Shown here one piece after another: positions 54,877 to 60,845 of a stretch of 64,000 nt of DNA. How positions within the stretch are numbered: the first letter of the stretch is position 1; every line of letters starts with the position of its first letter. The translations under genes and the position numbers were made by a program. The notes beneath the pieces were generated by a model. The model made no database searches. It worked only from the letters and a program-made list of their open reading frames with translations, and was not told where the DNA came from. This DNA comes from Ruminococcus flavefaciens (lineage in GTDB: Bacteria; Bacillota; Clostridia; Oscillospirales; Ruminococcaceae). The stretch covers positions 19,736 to 83,735 of the forward strand of contig CACWHY010000010.1 of the NCBI GenBank assembly GCA_902760805.1. The letters are read 5' to 3'.

Positions 54877-57060
54877 TCACCCGGCCTCGTTACCCATAAC
54901 GATACCACGGCCATTGGTGGCGAAGTAAACTCTTCCGAAGACCTGACTGTCTCCGGTTATAGAAGGTGTGATATTGCCGAAAAGGTGGTCATCGTCGTTA
55001 AGGCGCTGCCAGCTTTTTCCGTTGTCAGTCGATCTGTAGATGCCGTCGCCGTGCGGAGTTTTGTTGCCCTCCACGTTGTCGTTGCCCATGATATAGATGG
55101 TCTCGTCACCGCCGGACTTTTTGGGAGCTCCCAGGCCAAGGGCAGTGGCGTTTGCGGTCTTCACCAAGGTGAAGGTCTTCCCGCCGTCCTCAGATACCAT
55201 GGGATAAGAGCCTCCGCAGGCCCAAATCACTCCGGACTTCTTGCCGCTGGGCGTAAGGACGCAGCTGTCCGTGAGCACAGCGCCGGTAGCAGTGAAGTTG
55301 AATCCGCCGTCCTCTGAGGCGTAGACCATGCCGCCGCTTATGGCGTAGAATTTCTTCGGGTCAACTCGGTCCGCAGCGATCTTAGCGCCGTAGCCGATGC
55401 CCTCGCAGTAATACCAGGTCTTTCCGTAGTCGTTGGTAACATAGGGCTTTCCGCTGATAGAAGCCGGCTTCCAGATGATCGTAGAGCCGTCAGCAGACAT
55501 TGAGGCGCTTCCGCCCTGTGACTTCTCCGGCAGCTTCTTGATAGTTTCCCAAGTTGCGCCTCCGTCGGTGGTGTACACAAGCGCCTGCTTGCTCTCACTT
55601 GTGTAAACGGCATAATTGCTGTCCAGCCAAGCGCAGTCCACGGAGGTGGGGTTGCCATTCTTCATGAAATGAGCGTCGTCGGGGCACTTCTCCACGTCCA
55701 GATGAGCAAAGCCCGTCAGGTCGCCCATTATGGAGTAAAGCTGAGGCTTGCCCTCCTCATAAGGAGGAGCGACCATGTCGAAAACAGCAGTTTCCTCGAT
55801 ACCGTAGGCGTCGAATTCGATCGTTACGGGAGTATCGCTGCCCAGGTCAGTGAGATTTTTTGTGGAGAAAAGCGTTGCACCGGTGCCGTAGCTGACCTTA
55901 TCGGAGTCAAATGGATCCAGCGCCACAGCCGCTGTCCACCAGCCTGTCTTGGCCTCGTCCCTGCCCCAGTCAAGCCACTGAGCACGAGAGGTGTCCATGA
56001 CGTAATTCTTCTCGGTTTTCGTGTAAAGCGCAGACCAGCTCTCTCCGCCGTCAGTGGTACGGTAGAGGTTGTCGCCCTTGTCGTCCCAGAAGCTGAGGGA
56101 AGTCACCACAACGGTGTCGGGATCCTGGCCGTCCAAAGTTATGCCGCCGTAGCCGCCGTAGTGTCCGTCCCCCACATCGGGAGTTATATCAGTGAATGTT
56201 TCAGTTTTCAGGTCAAGTGAGTAGACAGCTCCGGCCTTGGGGTCGGTATTTGGTCCGCAGGTGTCAGAGCAGGCCATGTACATCTTGCCATTTGTCGATA
56301 TAACGGCCTGAAGCGGATAATATCCGGGAGCATTTGCCGGAAGAGCCTCCCAGGAATTTCCCCCGTCAGAGGATCGGTAGATGCACTCGCCGTTCATCAT
56401 GGCAGCTCCGGCATAAACATCACCATTCACCGGGTCGAATTCCACCCACATTATGCCGATCTTGTTGCCCTCCTGCAAATAATCGCCCTTCACCGGGAAG
56501 GACTCCACCTGCTTCCAGGTCTCGCCGAAGTCCTCGGATCTCCAAAGGCCGTCAGACCGGGAGCCGAAGTAGACGATGTTGTTGTTCACAGGGTCGACCT
56601 TCAAGCGCTCGCCCACGCCTCTTCCGGAGTTATTTCCTCCGCAGCCGAAGGGCAGATCAAAGCGCTTCCAGGTCTTTCCGTAGTCTTTGGAGGAGATGAT
56701 AGCGCCGTTTTGCCCCATATAGGTACCGCAGGCGCAGTAGACACGGCTAGTCTCCTTGGGGTCACAGGCAATGCTCTCGATGCCGATGAGATTCCACTCA
56801 TCGCCGCCGAAGCAGTCAGTGATAGCGACCCAGCGGCCTTTTTCCTTGTCGAAGCGGTAGGCTCCGCCGATGTCAGTGCGTGCGTAGGCGAGGCCCTCCT
56901 CGCCGGGGTCGTATACGATACCAGTTATATAGCCGCCGCCTCCGATAGCGACGTTGCTCCAGTCATAGCTAAGCTGTGCGGAGCTCTTAGCCGAGCAGCC
57001 AGCCGCTGAGAGGGCAACGGCAGCAGCTGACAGAAGTGAGAGGATCCTGACAGAACGCAT
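54877..57060 (-). CDS. GH74 xyloglucanase, lipoprotein type, without dockerin
   Basis: The protein has 727 residues. A lipobox (LSAAGCSAK, Cys22) suggests a lipid anchor at the cell surface. Two seven-bladed propellers of GH74 follow, with BNR-type turns (SSKDYGKTW, SSDGGNSWEAL, TTDGGESWSAL, TNDYGKTWYY, SEDGGKTFTL). The catalytic Asp sits in YARTDIGGAYRFD near residue 62; the partner Asp should lie in the second propeller and VDCAWLDSNYAVY is in the right region. GH74 enzymes cut the glucan backbone of xyloglucan. Being membrane-bound rather than dockerin-bearing sets it apart from the other glycosidases here. First gene of a four-gene operon. Confidence 0.93.
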   Translation of the reverse strand: MRSVRILSLLSAAAVALSAAGCSAKSSAQLSYDWSNVAIGGGGYITGIVYDPGEEGLAYARTDIGGAYRFDKEKGRWVAITDCFGGDEWNLIGIESIACDPKETSRVYCACGTYMGQNGAIISSKDYGKTWKRFDLPFGCGGNNSGRGVGERLKVDPVNNNIVYFGSRSDGLWRSEDFGETWKQVESFPVKGDYLQEGNKIGIMWVEFDPVNGDVYAGAAMMNGECIYRSSDGGNSWEALPANAPGYYPLQAVISTNGKMYMACSDTCGPNTDPKAGAVYSLDLKTETFTDITPDVGDGHYGGYGGITLDGQDPDTVVVTSLSFWDDKGDNLYRTTDGGESWSALYTKTEKNYVMDTSRAQWLDWGRDEAKTGWWTAAVALDPFDSDKVSYGTGATLFSTKNLTDLGSDTPVTIEFDAYGIEETAVFDMVAPPYEEGKPQLYSIMGDLTGFAHLDVEKCPDDAHFMKNGNPTSVDCAWLDSNYAVYTSESKQALVYTTDGGATWETIKKLPEKSQGGSASMSADGSTIIWKPASISGKPYVTNDYGKTWYYCEGIGYGAKIAADRVDPKKFYAISGGMVYASEDGGFNFTATGAVLTDSCVLTPSGKKSGVIWACGGSYPMVSEDGGKTFTLVKTANATALGLGAPKKSGGDETIYIMGNDNVEGNKTPHGDGIYRSTDNGKSWQRLNDDDHLFGNITPSITGDSQVFGRVYFATNGRGIVMGNEAG

Positions 57061-57221: not shown

Positions 57222-57320
57222 AAACGTAGGGGCGGACCCATGTGTCCGCCCGGCCGTTACGAACACCAAAACCCAGCAGGCCCGAAGGGTCCTGCGAAGA
57301 ACAGTCAAAAGCCGGCGGAG
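57222..57320 (+). repeat. 99-bp direct repeat, copy 1
   Basis: Nearly identical to 57744-57842. It includes one palindromic unit and a GCAGG...CCTGC hairpin. Confidence 0.9.
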
Positions 57321-57743
57321 GAGGTGGGGAGTGAGGGAAAAGAGAGTGCAGAGAGGAAAACCGTATAGAGGGGAGGGGGAGCCGGCTTTTGTACCAGTTT
57401 TTTTTACACACCCTCCCCTCTAGGAGGTGTTCCTCTTTGCATTGACGAGGCGGAGGTCTGACGGACAACAAAACGTAGGGGGCGATGCCCACATCGCCCC
57501 GCCAATATCGTTTCCGCATACGTTTTTCAAATGGCATGGGCGATCGTTTGGTATTAGGCCGGGCGGATAATATCCGCCCCTACATTTACGCATACGTTTT
57601 GCAAAAGGCCGGGACGTCGAGGACGCCGTCCCCTACAATTCGTTTCGGCAGATGTTGTCAAATCGGCCGGGAGGCCGAGGGCGGCCTCCCCTACAATTCA
57701 TTCGGGCATATGATTTCCAAACGGCCGGGCGTCACGAACAACC

Positions 57744-57842
57744 AAACGTAGGGGCGGACCCATGTGTCCGCCCGGCCGTTACGAACACCAAAACCCAGCA
57801 GGCCCGAAGGGTCCTGCGAAGAACAGTCAAAAGCCGGCGGAG
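57744..57842 (+). repeat. 99-bp direct repeat, copy 2
   Basis: Copy of 57222-57320. A 16-bp string, AGTCAAAAGCCGGCGG, is then duplicated in tandem at 57825 and 57841. Confidence 0.9.
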
Positions 57843-58182
57843 TCAAAAGCCGGCGGAGGTCTTACGGACAACAAAACGTAGGGGGCGATGCCCACATCGC
57901 CCCGCCAATATCGTTTCCGCAAATATTTCGATATGTGGCCGGGCGGATAATATCCGCCCCTACATTTACGCACACGTTTTGCAAAAGGCCGGGACGTCGA
58001 GGACGCCGTCCCCTACAATTCGTTTCGGCAGATGTTGTCAAATCTGCCGGGAGGCCGAGGGCGGCCTCCCCTACAATTCATTCGGGCATATGATTTCCAA
58101 ACGGCCGGGCGGATAATATCCGCCCCTACATTTCCGCATACATTGTCCCCATGGCCGGGACGTCGAGGACGCCGTCCCCTAC

Positions 58183-58264
58183 AATTTGTTCCCAGAGAAC
58201 GATCAAGATCCGTCCGCCAAATGACGGACACCGCAATTGTGAATTATTGATCAAAAGATTGTGG
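58183..58264. other. Spacer between repeat array and corA promoter
   Basis: No gene seen; AT-rich towards the promoter. Confidence 0.5.
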
Positions 58265-58293
58265 TTGCATTTTTTCTGAAAATATGTTATACT
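58265..58293 (+). promoter_or_regulatory. Promoter of corA
   Basis: TTGCAT (58265-58270), 17 bp and TATACT (58288-58293). The transcript would start near 58300, leaving a leader of about 230 nt. Confidence 0.75.
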
Positions 58294-58294
58294 A

Positions 58295-58529
58295 ATAGTA
58301 GCCGTGCTGACACGGACTATTACAAATGTACAGGAGGTGCAAAGATGAGCTCTGACCCTTATGGGAGTCTTGAGATCTACCCTCAAAAACGGCAGCGGTG
58401 CTGACCGGACATTCTGATAGTGCTCCCTCGAAAGCGGAGGCAGTATCAGACTGCCCGGCCGGTCCTGCGCTCCAGCCGTGAAATACTTTGAAAGGAGCGC
58501 TGCCTGTCCAAAGCAGGCACAATTTAGCT
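58295..58529 (+). promoter_or_regulatory. Structured corA leader with internal leader ORF
   Basis: In order: a hairpin at 58291-58320 (ATAGT/ACTAT and CCGTG/CACGG), a leader ORF at 58345-58404, and a long hairpin closed by GACCGG (58403-58408) and CCGGTC (58459-58464) with CTGATA/TATCAG and CTCC/GGAG inside. AAAGGAG follows at 58491-58497, then a GCCTG/CAGGC hairpin at 58502-58518. GGCAGCG (58391-58397, in the leader ORF) is fully complementary to CGCTGCC (58498-58504), right after the SD, so two foldings exclude each other. The conserved core of the M-box Mg riboswitch is not seen. Confidence 0.7.
58345..58404 (+). CDS. Leader peptide of corA, 19 residues
   Basis: The frame ATG 58345 to TGA 58402-58404 has AGGAGG exactly 7 bp before the start, one of the best SDs in the window. 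It encodes MSSDPYGSLEIYPQKRQRC: acidic and Pro residues first, then a basic end. The stop overlaps the 5' base of the large downstream stem. MgtL of enteric bacteria, which controls an Mg transporter by ribosome destabilisation at low Mg, has the same sort of composition (Asp/Glu-Pro near the start, then Arg/Lys). Similar logic here is an inference; I know of no homologue. Confidence 0.7.
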   Translation: MSSDPYGSLEIYPQKRQRC

Positions 58530-59456
58530 ATGATCAATTTTTACACTTCAGAGAACGGCCGCCTGATCCAGTGCGAAGAGCCGACCCCCGGCTGCTGGAT
58601 CTCAGTGGTCAGCCCCACTCCCCAGGAGGTCAAGGAGCTGATCGACGGCTACGGCCTTGACAGCGGATTTGTCAAGTCCTCTCTCGATGAGGAGGAGTCA
58701 TCCCGTATCGAGCGTGAGGACGACCAGACCCTTGTGATCATCGACACCCCTGTTTCCTCTATGGACGAGGACCAGACAAGGCTGTTCTACACCATGCCTA
58801 TCGGCATTATCCTCACCGATGAGTACGTCTTCACGATCTCTCTTCAGGAGACCCAGATCATCGACGAGGCCGTAAGAGGAACTATCCGCAACCTCCGCCC
58901 CAGCTTCAAGACACGCTTTGTTTTGCAGCTCCTGCTGAGGATCGCCGCAATGTTCCTCATCTACCTGAAACAGATCGACAAGATCTCATCTGCTGCTGAG
59001 CAGAAGATCCACGACGCCATGAAGAACGAACAGCTCATGCAGCTGCTTGCTCTGGAGAAGTCACTGGTATACTTCTCCACCTCGCTGAAAGCCAACGAGG
59101 CCACTATCGAGAAGATCTTCCGTGGAAGAGTCATCAAGCTCTACGATGAGGATCAGGATCTGCTTGAGGATGTTCTTATCGAGATGAAGCAGGCGATCGA
59201 GATGTCCAGCATCTACACGGGGATCCTGTCCAGTATGATGGACGGCTTCTCCTCCATAATCTCCAACAACCTGAACATCGTCATGTGGCGCCTGACCATA
59301 ATCACCATCGTTATGGAGATCCCCAACATCATGTTCGCATTTTACGGTATCAACACAGTTGACCTGCCCATGCCCTACACATGGTTTGCGATCACCCTGA
59401 CAGTTTTCCTCACAGGCATAACGGCGTTTATCCTGATAAAATGGAAGAAAAAATGA
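58530..59456 (+). CDS. corA: CorA-family magnesium transporter
   Basis: The protein has 308 residues from ATG 58530. An in-frame TTG at 58488 lacks an SD, and homologues start close to MINFY. The soluble alpha/beta funnel domain occupies residues 1-235. Two C-terminal membrane helices follow with YGIN at the end of the first, where GMN is typical, a variant seen in many CorA-like proteins, and the tail WKKK. A pentameric channel for Mg or another divalent ion at the plasma membrane is expected. The nearest strong SD (AAAGGAG) is 32 bp upstream behind a hairpin, while a weak AAGCAGG lies closer, so initiation is probably controlled by leader folding. Confidence 0.92.
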   Translation: MINFYTSENGRLIQCEEPTPGCWISVVSPTPQEVKELIDGYGLDSGFVKSSLDEEESSRIEREDDQTLVIIDTPVSSMDEDQTRLFYTMPIGIILTDEYVFTISLQETQIIDEAVRGTIRNLRPSFKTRFVLQLLLRIAAMFLIYLKQIDKISSAAEQKIHDAMKNEQLMQLLALEKSLVYFSTSLKANEATIEKIFRGRVIKLYDEDQDLLEDVLIEMKQAIEMSSIYTGILSSMMDGFSSIISNNLNIVMWRLTIITIVMEIPNIMFAFYGINTVDLPMPYTWFAITLTVFLTGITAFILIKWKKK

Positions 59457-59492: not shown

Positions 59493-60845
59493 TTACTTTG
59501 CAAGGAAATCTCTGAATGAGCCGGTGCCGCCTGTCTGAGTGTAGGCGTAGTAGGAGAGCACCGTAGAAGCGTCGGTTGCATCAATGAACTCATCACGATC
59601 AATGTTGCCGGCGATCTTCTGATCCTCGCTGAGAGCCGAGGGAGCTCCGGTCTGAGTGAGAGCGTAATCAGCCAGGATCACAGAGGCATCAGATGAATCG
59701 ATAACATCATCCAAATTCACATCGCCGATGAAAACTCCCACAGCACTCTTATATGCTGCAAGAGCAGCTGCGGGGTAGCTGTCCTTGTCTGCCAGCGAGC
59801 GGAAGGTCTTTCTCATAAGGCCGCCGTCGTTGCGCATATCGCCCACAGCGTTTGCGATAGTTGCGGCGATAGCCAGGTGTCCCTTCTTGTTGGGGTGGAA
59901 GTCCAGATCATCGCCCTCCTCCTGAATATCGGTGAAGAACCATGAATACTGCCCGCTCTTGCCAGCCTCAGCCGAGGTGAAGTCAGTGTAAACGTCCGCA
60001 ACGATCAGTCCCTTTTCAGCAGCGTACTCGCTGAGCTGGGTCTTGAAGCACTTTGCGTTAGTGGAGCTTGGGTCAACTCCCAGAACGTCCTGGAAAATAG
60101 GCGAAACTGCATTGATCACAGTTTTGCGGTTGGCAGACATATTCTTGTCCAGGAAGCCCTCCTCGAACTGGAGAGGATCGTAGATAGTCTGAACAACGAT
60201 CTTCAGGTCAGGGTCGGAGTTCAGCTCTCTGACCGCAGAAACAGCCTTGTCGATGTTGGGGATGATCTGAGTTTCGATGATGCAGTCGTACTTAGTGGTC
60301 TGAGTCATTCTCAGGTTAGCTGTCAGCCTTGCAGTTGTCTTTGCCAGAGTGAGAGTGTTCTTGGCATCGTTGATGTAAGCAGCTGCTGCTGAGCGGTCCA
60401 GCATATTCTCAAGGTCGCCGAAGGTAGGCCTTGTGGGAATATCATCTGCGGTATATCCGGCAGTCATGAACTTATTCGTAGCGGCGAAATCCAGCAGGAA
60501 CCTTGCTCCGTAGTTGATAAGGTCGTTTCCTCCGATAGAGATAACAACGATGTCAGCGTCAGAAACTGCGGAAGAAAGCTGATCTGAGGGTGCTTCCAGC
60601 TGTTTTGCCAGGTCGTCGGAAGTTGCGCCGGCAACAGCGAAATTCGCATAGGCCGAGCTTCCGTAGTAGTCGCTGAGGATCTCACCGTAGCAGCTCTCGC
60701 CCTCCTCAAGACCGTAGCCGCTGGCGATAGAATCTCCCAGCACAACGATAGCCGGAGAGCTCTCCTCTGCGGCAAAAGCTGGAAAAACAGCAGCAGAAGC
60801 AGCTGTAAGTGAAGCTGCGATGGCAGCCGAAATGAACTTTTTCAT
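59493..60845 (-). CDS. Secreted SGNH/GDSL hydrolase with C-terminal dockerin
   Basis: The protein has 450 residues. Signal peptide 1-26. SGNH blocks: VVLGDSIASGYG (Ser39), a Gly block near ANFAVAGAT, SIGGNDLINYG (Asn) and DFHPNKKGH (Asp, His). The size and insertions between blocks resemble lipase-like SGNH enzymes rather than pectin acetylesterases. A type I dockerin at about 375-440 has GDVNLDDVIDSSDASVILADY and GNIDRDEFIDATDASTVLSYY, two good Ca loops. It would act in the cellulosome as an esterase. AGGAGG precedes the ATG. A full-consensus promoter stands upstream. Confidence 0.93.
   Translation of the reverse strand: MKKFISAAIAASLTAASAAVFPAFAAEESSPAIVVLGDSIASGYGLEEGESCYGEILSDYYGSSAYANFAVAGATSDDLAKQLEAPSDQLSSAVSDADIVVISIGGNDLINYGARFLLDFAATNKFMTAGYTADDIPTRPTFGDLENMLDRSAAAAYINDAKNTLTLAKTTARLTANLRMTQTTKYDCIIETQIIPNIDKAVSAVRELNSDPDLKIVVQTIYDPLQFEEGFLDKNMSANRKTVINAVSPIFQDVLGVDPSSTNAKCFKTQLSEYAAEKGLIVADVYTDFTSAEAGKSGQYSWFFTDIQEEGDDLDFHPNKKGHLAIAATIANAVGDMRNDGGLMRKTFRSLADKDSYPAAALAAYKSAVGVFIGDVNLDDVIDSSDASVILADYALTQTGAPSALSEDQKIAGNIDRDEFIDATDASTVLSYYAYTQTGGTGSFRDFLAK

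Follow-up and report, generated by a model that had tools for sequence, protein, structure and literature searches.

Does the short open reading frame ahead of the corA gene of Ruminococcus flavefaciens control the translation of that gene, and what would the ribosome reading it respond to? An initial annotation of the window, by which we mean the whole 64,000-nucleotide stretch of DNA analysed here, had likened the encoded peptide to the enteric leader MgtL and proposed that a ribosome on the leader changes which RNA stem forms downstream. We examined this proposal at the locus itself, among its relatives in the genus, and in the wider phylum Bacillota.

Layout of the corA leader

The leader open reading frame MSSDPYGSLEIYPQKRQRC comprises 19 codons on the forward strand (58345-58404; ATG at 58345, TGA at 58402-58404), as judged from open-reading-frame calls and conservation, and the mechanical ORF list includes it as the final part of a longer frame that opens with GTG and also ends at 58404. 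Its Shine-Dalgarno sequence AGGAGG lies at 58332-58337 on the same strand, and GGAGG, GGTGG or GGCGG precedes nearly all of the listed relatives' leaders. All of these elements had been given correctly in the initial annotation, as had two complementary 7-mers discussed below. The gene that starts 125 nt downstream of the leader stop is indeed that of a Mg2+ transporter, a CorA-type protein of 308 aa (58530-59456, forward strand; PF01544, E = 2.1e-48). At the thresholds applied, CorA is matched once in the genome of the window and MgtE nowhere. The neighbouring genes encode a GDSL lipase (59493-60845), whose dockerin match falls below the cut-off, and a BNR/sortilin-repeat protein (54877-57060).

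A promoter-like sequence with an extended -10 element, TTGCAT-17-TGTTATACT, can be read by eye at 58265-58293 on the forward strand, and TATAAT-like boxes stand at the matching place in many relatives (by eye, uncounted), but the promoter scanner returned no site for this candidate at its cut-off; the promoter claimed earlier therefore stands as a visual reading and not as a scanner call. The intergenic region upstream of it (57222-58277) consists of repeated GC-rich units, including 99 identical nucleotides at 57222 and 57744 and 185 nt that are 97% alike at 57547 and 57927. Both hairpins described in the initial annotation were recovered by folding, one at the 5' end of the predicted mRNA (58296-58321) and a long one after the leader (58400-58463), both on the forward strand, and the fold of 58295-58529 is stronger than that of shuffled sequences (z = -3.06; 2 of 200 shuffles were as good). 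The nearest relative, L002, has the long hairpin too, and no constant counterpart of the first was noticed in a by-eye listing of relatives. At gathering scores, the single Rfam match was a 5S rRNA at the window's end, with nothing in the leader region, and the M-box family RF00380 was not found in the window; no family matched 58150-58600 at E values up to 10. No site resembling an intrinsic terminator was found at 58180-58560.

Conservation of the leader start

From 135 CorA relatives we kept the best 80 lying on named genome contigs (74 of the 80 titles are Ruminococcus), and 79 of these best 80 loci carry, upstream of corA, a leader of the M-x-x-Asp-Pro-Tyr-Gly type with a Shine-Dalgarno sequence directly ahead; L004 is the exception. 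Together with the window this makes 81 corA loci, 80 of them with Asp-Pro in place. The recount over these loci fixed nothing after Asp-Pro, and residue 6 was Tyr in 75 leaders and Cys in five, and residue 7 Gly in 78 and Ala in two. In the window, the corresponding core codons GAC CCT TAT GGG (Asp4-Pro5-Tyr6-Gly7) occupy 58354-58365 on the forward strand. A search for the core-codon pattern, in which the following gene was read for the fetched loci, matched 97 of 125 genomes of the genus (57 of the 68 of high quality), and a reversed-pattern control matched none. The 28 genomes that failed to match comprise nine without corA at E = 1e-20, 15 with a variant leader (GGGCAT or MTADPYG, for example) and four with corA and no leader. 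Five corA genes of the genus stand without a leader (L004, L120 and L127-L129): at L004 and L120 no more than a five-codon ORF is left before the Shine-Dalgarno sequence, and L127 and L128 have a promoter-like box a short way upstream of corA. One genome, G318, has a second pattern match (L138) with no transporter in the translated stretch downstream.

The 102 distinct leaders collected in the genus are 10 to 45 residues long with a free C-terminus, so the basic C-terminal end to which the initial annotation drew attention is a property of the window that relatives do not conserve; the likeness of its early Asp-Pro to MgtL was better founded, as both the frame and Asp-Pro are conserved. The residue two before Asp is Ser in 64 of the 102, Asn in 33, Thr in two and Lys in one, never Asp or Glu, and two leaders are one codon shorter. 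This set was gathered with an expression that demands Asp-Pro-[Tyr/Cys]-[Gly/Ala] with a codon 7 ending in G, and those letters are no evidence within it.

Codon choice at the core could be read from the 81 anchored loci. All 78 of the leaders with Gly7 use GGG for it, and so do 13 of 13 in the genomes that failed to match, whereas GGG accounts for 87 of the 1133 Gly codons (7.7%) of the corA genes. Asp4 is GAC in 77 leaders and GAT in three (n = 80), and the wobble position of Pro5 varies (CCT 89, CCG 7, CCC 6; n = 102). The conserved core, the varying Pro wobble and the fixation of GGG together indicate that the start of the peptide is under selection and that something besides the amino acid keeps the Gly codon constant. 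This may be base pairing to the CCC within the Asp-Pro codons, RNAalifold having proposed a CCC-UUAU-GGG helix in the core codons, or slow decoding. The latter would suit a mechanism in which the ribosome stalls instead of dropping off: Asp-Pro and the rare GGG would make it pause at codons 5-7, the cue being Mg2+, the activity of EF-P or the charging of tRNA, and the downstream 5' arm would stay free with the same output. Besides this use of GGG, the 5' arm of the 62 aligned leaders begins 13-22 nt (median 19) after GGG, roughly far enough to lie outside a ribosome paused at codon 7, given the size of a ribosome footprint. Since the core has neither Pro-Pro nor a run of cognate codons, and Gly occupies position 7 in no more than 18 of the 55 leaders from outside the genus, we consider such a stall rather unlikely, if worth keeping in mind.

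We then compared corA loci outside the genus using SD-preceded upstream ORFs with Asp4-Pro5. These were found at 42 of 65 corA loci in other genera of the family, with leaders such as VNPDPGST, MSPDPGCR, MDGDPSR and VEGDPRG, and at 13 of 69 loci in other families of the class, the motif being absent from the remaining 23 and 56 upstream regions. Any other position of Asp from 2 to 14 gave zero or one leader each, and shuffled sequences averaged 0.1 with a maximum of one. The rule on residue 4 was made after part of the family set was known, and the class set is thus the cleaner test, with three of its 13 matches (G483, G554 and G546) known beforehand. The 65 family loci derive from 69 genomes with CorA, less two of the window's genus and two partial matches (G042 and G080); the 69 class loci derive from 87 CorA places, of which 70 were read and one was dropped (G063, of the window's family). 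In the 55 leaders outside the genus, gathered by a search that itself demands Asp-Pro, residue 2 is acidic (Asp or Glu) in 20.

Patterns not tied to any gene gave sparser matches. The class search matched 11 times in 291 genomes against five control matches, and eight of the 11 lay before corA or mgtE: the window, six corA genes and one mgtE, next to two N-termini of CNNM/CorC proteins and one unrelated case. Gene identities in the class rest on Pfam for L227, L228, L230, L231, L232 and L237 and on likeness only for L229, L233 and L235. In the phylum, 20 matches in 348 genomes (seven in the control) comprised six corA, four mgtE and two MgtE_N-CBS-PRC genes, Pfam having been run on all twelve of these transporter-type genes, and eight others, about the number that the control predicts. 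The pattern matches L236, L338, L340, L348, L349, L352 and L355-L357 do not represent short leaders ahead of Mg2+ transporters and were set aside. Of 30 mgtE loci of the class, some of which may not be mgtE because the ORF was picked by a script, two have the motif (MDYDPLPI and MDSDPLPG). As judged from these sequences, the same peptide core is present across Bacillota on differing RNAs.

This distribution bears on the alternative that the RNA itself, as a riboswitch, or a protein senses Mg2+ and that the short ORF merely sets up the structure. The helices downstream do covary, as described below, and the near-fixed wobble positions of Asp4 and Gly7, together with the possible CCC-UUAU-GGG pairing, are what a structured RNA might produce. 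Other genera, however, keep the frame and residues 4 and 5 but seem to share no likeness beyond the core (by eye, unaligned), the Pro wobble varies, and no Rfam family matches the leader region. We therefore regard sensing by the RNA or a protein as improbable.

RNA helices at the corA Shine-Dalgarno sequence

In the initial annotation, the choice of stem depended on GGCAGCG in the leader (58391-58397) and CGCTGCC next to the corA ribosome-binding site (58498-58504). The two are exact complements, yet a match of at least 7 nt between these regions occurs in 3 of 100 leaders (the window, L002 and L018), and the mean longest match is 4.28 against 4.20 in shuffled sequences; within the 235 nt of 58295-58529 there are three complementary 7-mer pairs against 1.62 in shuffles. 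Because of this rarity and of lengths so close to those of shuffles, we rejected the 7-mer pairing as a conserved device. From the comparison of sequences, the conserved device is instead a competition in which a 5' arm, at or after the leader end, and the Shine-Dalgarno region contend for one middle strand. The earlier idea that a ribosome on the leader alters the choice of stem thus retains its basis in exclusive, covarying helices, which form by a pairing other than the one proposed.

In the window, all on the forward strand, the 5' arm or anti-sequestor CGGCAGCG falls within the last leader codons (58390-58397), assigned by its pairing in the minimum-energy fold and by the covariation of its counterpart helix in relatives. 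The middle strand (58467-58478), assigned by folding and by the covariation of the corresponding arms, contains the anti-Shine-Dalgarno sequence GCGCTCC (58467-58473) overlapping the partner of the 5' arm, CGCTCCAGCCG (58468-58478). The corA Shine-Dalgarno sequence AAAGGAG plus CGC follows at 58491-58500, and its GGAGCGC (58494-58500) is complementary to 58467-58473. A further predicted hairpin lies between it and the corA start (58501-58519) and is seen by eye in many, not all, relatives (uncounted).

Covariation was counted in an alignment of 62 leaders of the short class, which leaves aside 36 long ones, the window among them, as well as L082 and L083; kinship of the sequences inflates the covariation counts of both helices. 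Between the 5' arm (columns 39-50) and the middle strand (columns 76-87), 90.3% of the cells are paired, against 78.7% in shuffles and 31-52% in slid versions. Two-sided changes amount to 73 cells against 25.6 and affect 8 of 11 pairs against 6.0, a number reached by 24 of 500 shuffles. The helix of the middle strand and the TGCTCT upstream of it with the Shine-Dalgarno region is paired in 85.4% of the cells, against 83.2% in shuffles and 46-53% in slid versions, with two-sided changes in 36 cells against 9.4 and in 6 of 14 pairs against 3.8 (reached by 35 of 500 shuffles). Its pair types number 17 against 16.2, which 207 of 500 shuffles reach, and its Shine-Dalgarno side is largely invariant. 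RNAalifold recovered the first helix and not the second. The repetition of the arms is visible in single leaders, for example as CCGGCG, CGCCGG and CCGGCGAAAGGAG in L003. By these counts, two covarying helices that exclude one another are open to the RNA after the core, and one of them hides the corA Shine-Dalgarno sequence.

To what extent does folding reproduce such a switch? In the minimum-energy fold of the window, the 5' arm pairs with 58468-58478 and GGAG of the Shine-Dalgarno sequence pairs with leader codons 2-3, and GGAG is predicted to be closed (0.04 open) even when no part of the leader is occupied. Its mean unpaired probability is 0.16-0.20 when folding begins at 58375 or 58386, 0.03 from 58392 and 0.00 from 58400 on. 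After passage of the ribosome, the predicted openness of the Shine-Dalgarno sequence falls below the shuffled mean at 85 of 100 loci of the genus (the 102 leaders minus two without a Shine-Dalgarno sequence by the expression used), 36 of 42 of the family and 11 of 13 of the class. Among 18 loci found by pattern, which include the three class matches known beforehand, 11 lie below the shuffled mean, which is not significant. The gain in opening upon exposure of the 5' arm did not exceed that of shuffles in any set (55/100, 26/42, 7/13 and 13/18 loci), and in an earlier scan the difference between early and late openness exceeded 0.3 in only 16 of 100 leaders. We therefore rejected equilibrium folding as proof of switching: because closure exceeds shuffles and opening does not, folding supports sequestration, and switching is left to covariation and kinetics. 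A hairpin of GGGAAU with a downstream AUUCC gave a weak signal (78 of 102 leaders above the shuffled mean, at least 5 pairs in 47 of 102) and is not claimed.

The positions of the leader stops speak to plain translational coupling, in which the leader would just feed re-initiating ribosomes to corA. Among the 62 aligned leaders, 46 stop before the 5' arm, in it or in the loop after it, 14 in or after the middle strand, and two past the Shine-Dalgarno sequence. Coupling would suit L034, L054 and L055, whose frames run past the corA Shine-Dalgarno sequence and end 6-12 nt before its ATG. The 46 leaders ending upstream of the middle strand argue against it, as do the conserved separate Shine-Dalgarno sequence of corA in the aligned relatives and the fixation of Asp-Pro, for which coupling gives no reason; as a general account, we consider it very improbable.

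A translation-abort model and its known counterparts

The preferred reading is that the locus is a Mg2+-responsive leader-peptide switch on corA translation, an MgtL/MgtQ-like sensor of translation abort, and we lean towards it with some confidence. Leader translation would begin at once after transcription. With ample Mg2+, ribosomes would read past Asp4-Pro5 up to or over the 5' arm, and the freed middle strand would pair with the corA Shine-Dalgarno sequence, turning corA off. At low Mg2+, the ribosome would be destabilised on the nascent M-x-x-Asp-Pro and leave, or stay, upstream of the 5' arm, which would then capture the middle strand, so that the Shine-Dalgarno sequence would be free and CorA would be made. 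The sequences themselves show the conserved ORF with Asp4-Pro5, its association with Mg2+ transporters and M-boxes, the two exclusive helices and the predicted sequestration of the Shine-Dalgarno sequence; we infer the drop-off, its dependence on Mg2+ and the direction of control by analogy, the model being joined from the dissociation of ribosomes on acidic residues of MgtL and the exclusive stem-loops of mgtQ. Its expectation of the leader end agrees with 46 of the 62 aligned leaders; the 14 and two that stop further downstream would need release-dependent refolding or coupling, and L034, L054 and L055 are exceptions to it. Ahead of the presumed abort point, the window peptide has a single acidic residue (Ser2-Ser3-Asp4-Pro5) and MgtL two, which counts against the model.

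A few enteric leaders are known to sense Mg2+ through destabilisation of the ribosome, and the mechanism was reportedly named by Chadani in 2017. Escherichia coli MgtL begins with MEPDP, with EPDP at residues 2-5. Ribosomes dissociate on its acidic residues at low Mg2+, and EPDP, Glu2 and Asp4 are named as mattering in the excerpts of PMC11282234 at hand. The leaders described here resemble MgtL in being short, in this case predicted, ORFs with a strong Shine-Dalgarno sequence directly before the gene of a Mg2+ importer, in having Asp4-Pro5 at identical positions, and, in the 20 leaders outside the genus, in their acidic residue 2. They differ in that the helices involve the corA Shine-Dalgarno sequence, whereas MgtL controls Rho-dependent termination and targets a P-type ATPase (parts of PMC11282234 and PMC11552253), and in that the targets are CorA and MgtE in another phylum. 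Because residue 2 in the window is Ser and not Glu2, we do not name its leader MgtL. The tested precedent at the level of translation is mgtQ of the Salmonella mgtCBRU operon, in which destabilising acidic residues of the leader and exclusive stem-loops open or close the Shine-Dalgarno sequence of mgtB and thereby set its translation, as the available text of PMC8092293 describes. The relatives share with it the predicted exclusive helices, one hiding the transporter Shine-Dalgarno sequence (62 relatives; closure in 85 of 100). In contrast to the present leaders, mgtQ encodes 8 aa inside an operon, and its start-codon mutant lowers the transporter, for which the present model predicts a rise (same excerpts of PMC8092293). 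The best reading by analogy is that the window leader works like MgtL and mgtQ.

Other known elements are more distant. CorL also lies before corA in enteric bacteria, with a Mg2+ response reported in E. coli, but it is Rho-dependent and has fewer acidic and Pro residues by the account in the accessible part of PMC11552253. The corA motif is reported among Gammaproteobacteria (from a portion of PMC6429828). A conserved small ORF, uORF2/Rv1805A, lies downstream of an M-box in Mycobacterium tuberculosis; it encodes a mycobacteria-specific peptide with a conserved Pro at position 7, according to the sections of PMC12810186 at our disposal, which mention no Asp-Pro leader. Among the matches listed from open-licence PMC full texts there was no report of an Asp-Pro leader in Bacillota, and the accessible portions of PMC11552253, PMC12810186, PMC13009471 and PMC9276622 contain nothing of such leaders.

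We think it fairly probable that M/V-x-x-Asp-Pro leaders are phylum-wide nascent-peptide Mg2+ sensors of Bacillota that stand on unrelated RNAs ahead of CorA, MgtE and MgtE_N-CBS genes and sometimes behind an M-box, where one mRNA would read Mg2+ twice, by RNA for transcription and by ribosome stability for translation; Asp4-Pro5 would be shared with enteric MgtL through convergent evolution or a common ancestor. Bacillota with such leaders may gauge magnesium by the ability of the ribosome to finish a short peptide. If so, this mode of gene control would be widespread in gut and environmental bacteria, could explain the regulation of corA genes without an M-box, and would offer well over 100 natural variants that could reveal what kinds of N-terminal sequence destabilise the ribosome.

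The M-box (ykoK, RF00380) belongs to the same regulon and, unlike the leader, is an RNA aptamer without a peptide. We scanned 19 leader loci for it, a set other than the 55 corA-anchored leaders outside the genus, and found it upstream of the leader in seven (L279, L341, L343, L344, L351, L353 and L354), with 100-154 bits, 61-304 nt away and on the same strand. The leader lies between the M-box and a gene for a Mg2+ transporter or MgtE_N-CBS protein in each, and L353 and L354 are corA loci. Such an M-box, Asp-Pro leader and gene form an apparent two-sensor mRNA leader, which would be a natural two-sensor device. At mgtE-type loci without the motif, an M-box was found in three of 20, and we claim no enrichment. 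Finally, a CNNM/CorC-type membrane protein (L232:1515-2828, forward strand, by Pfam; also L233) itself begins with MDPDPNG behind GGAGG, possibly the same motif built into a protein.
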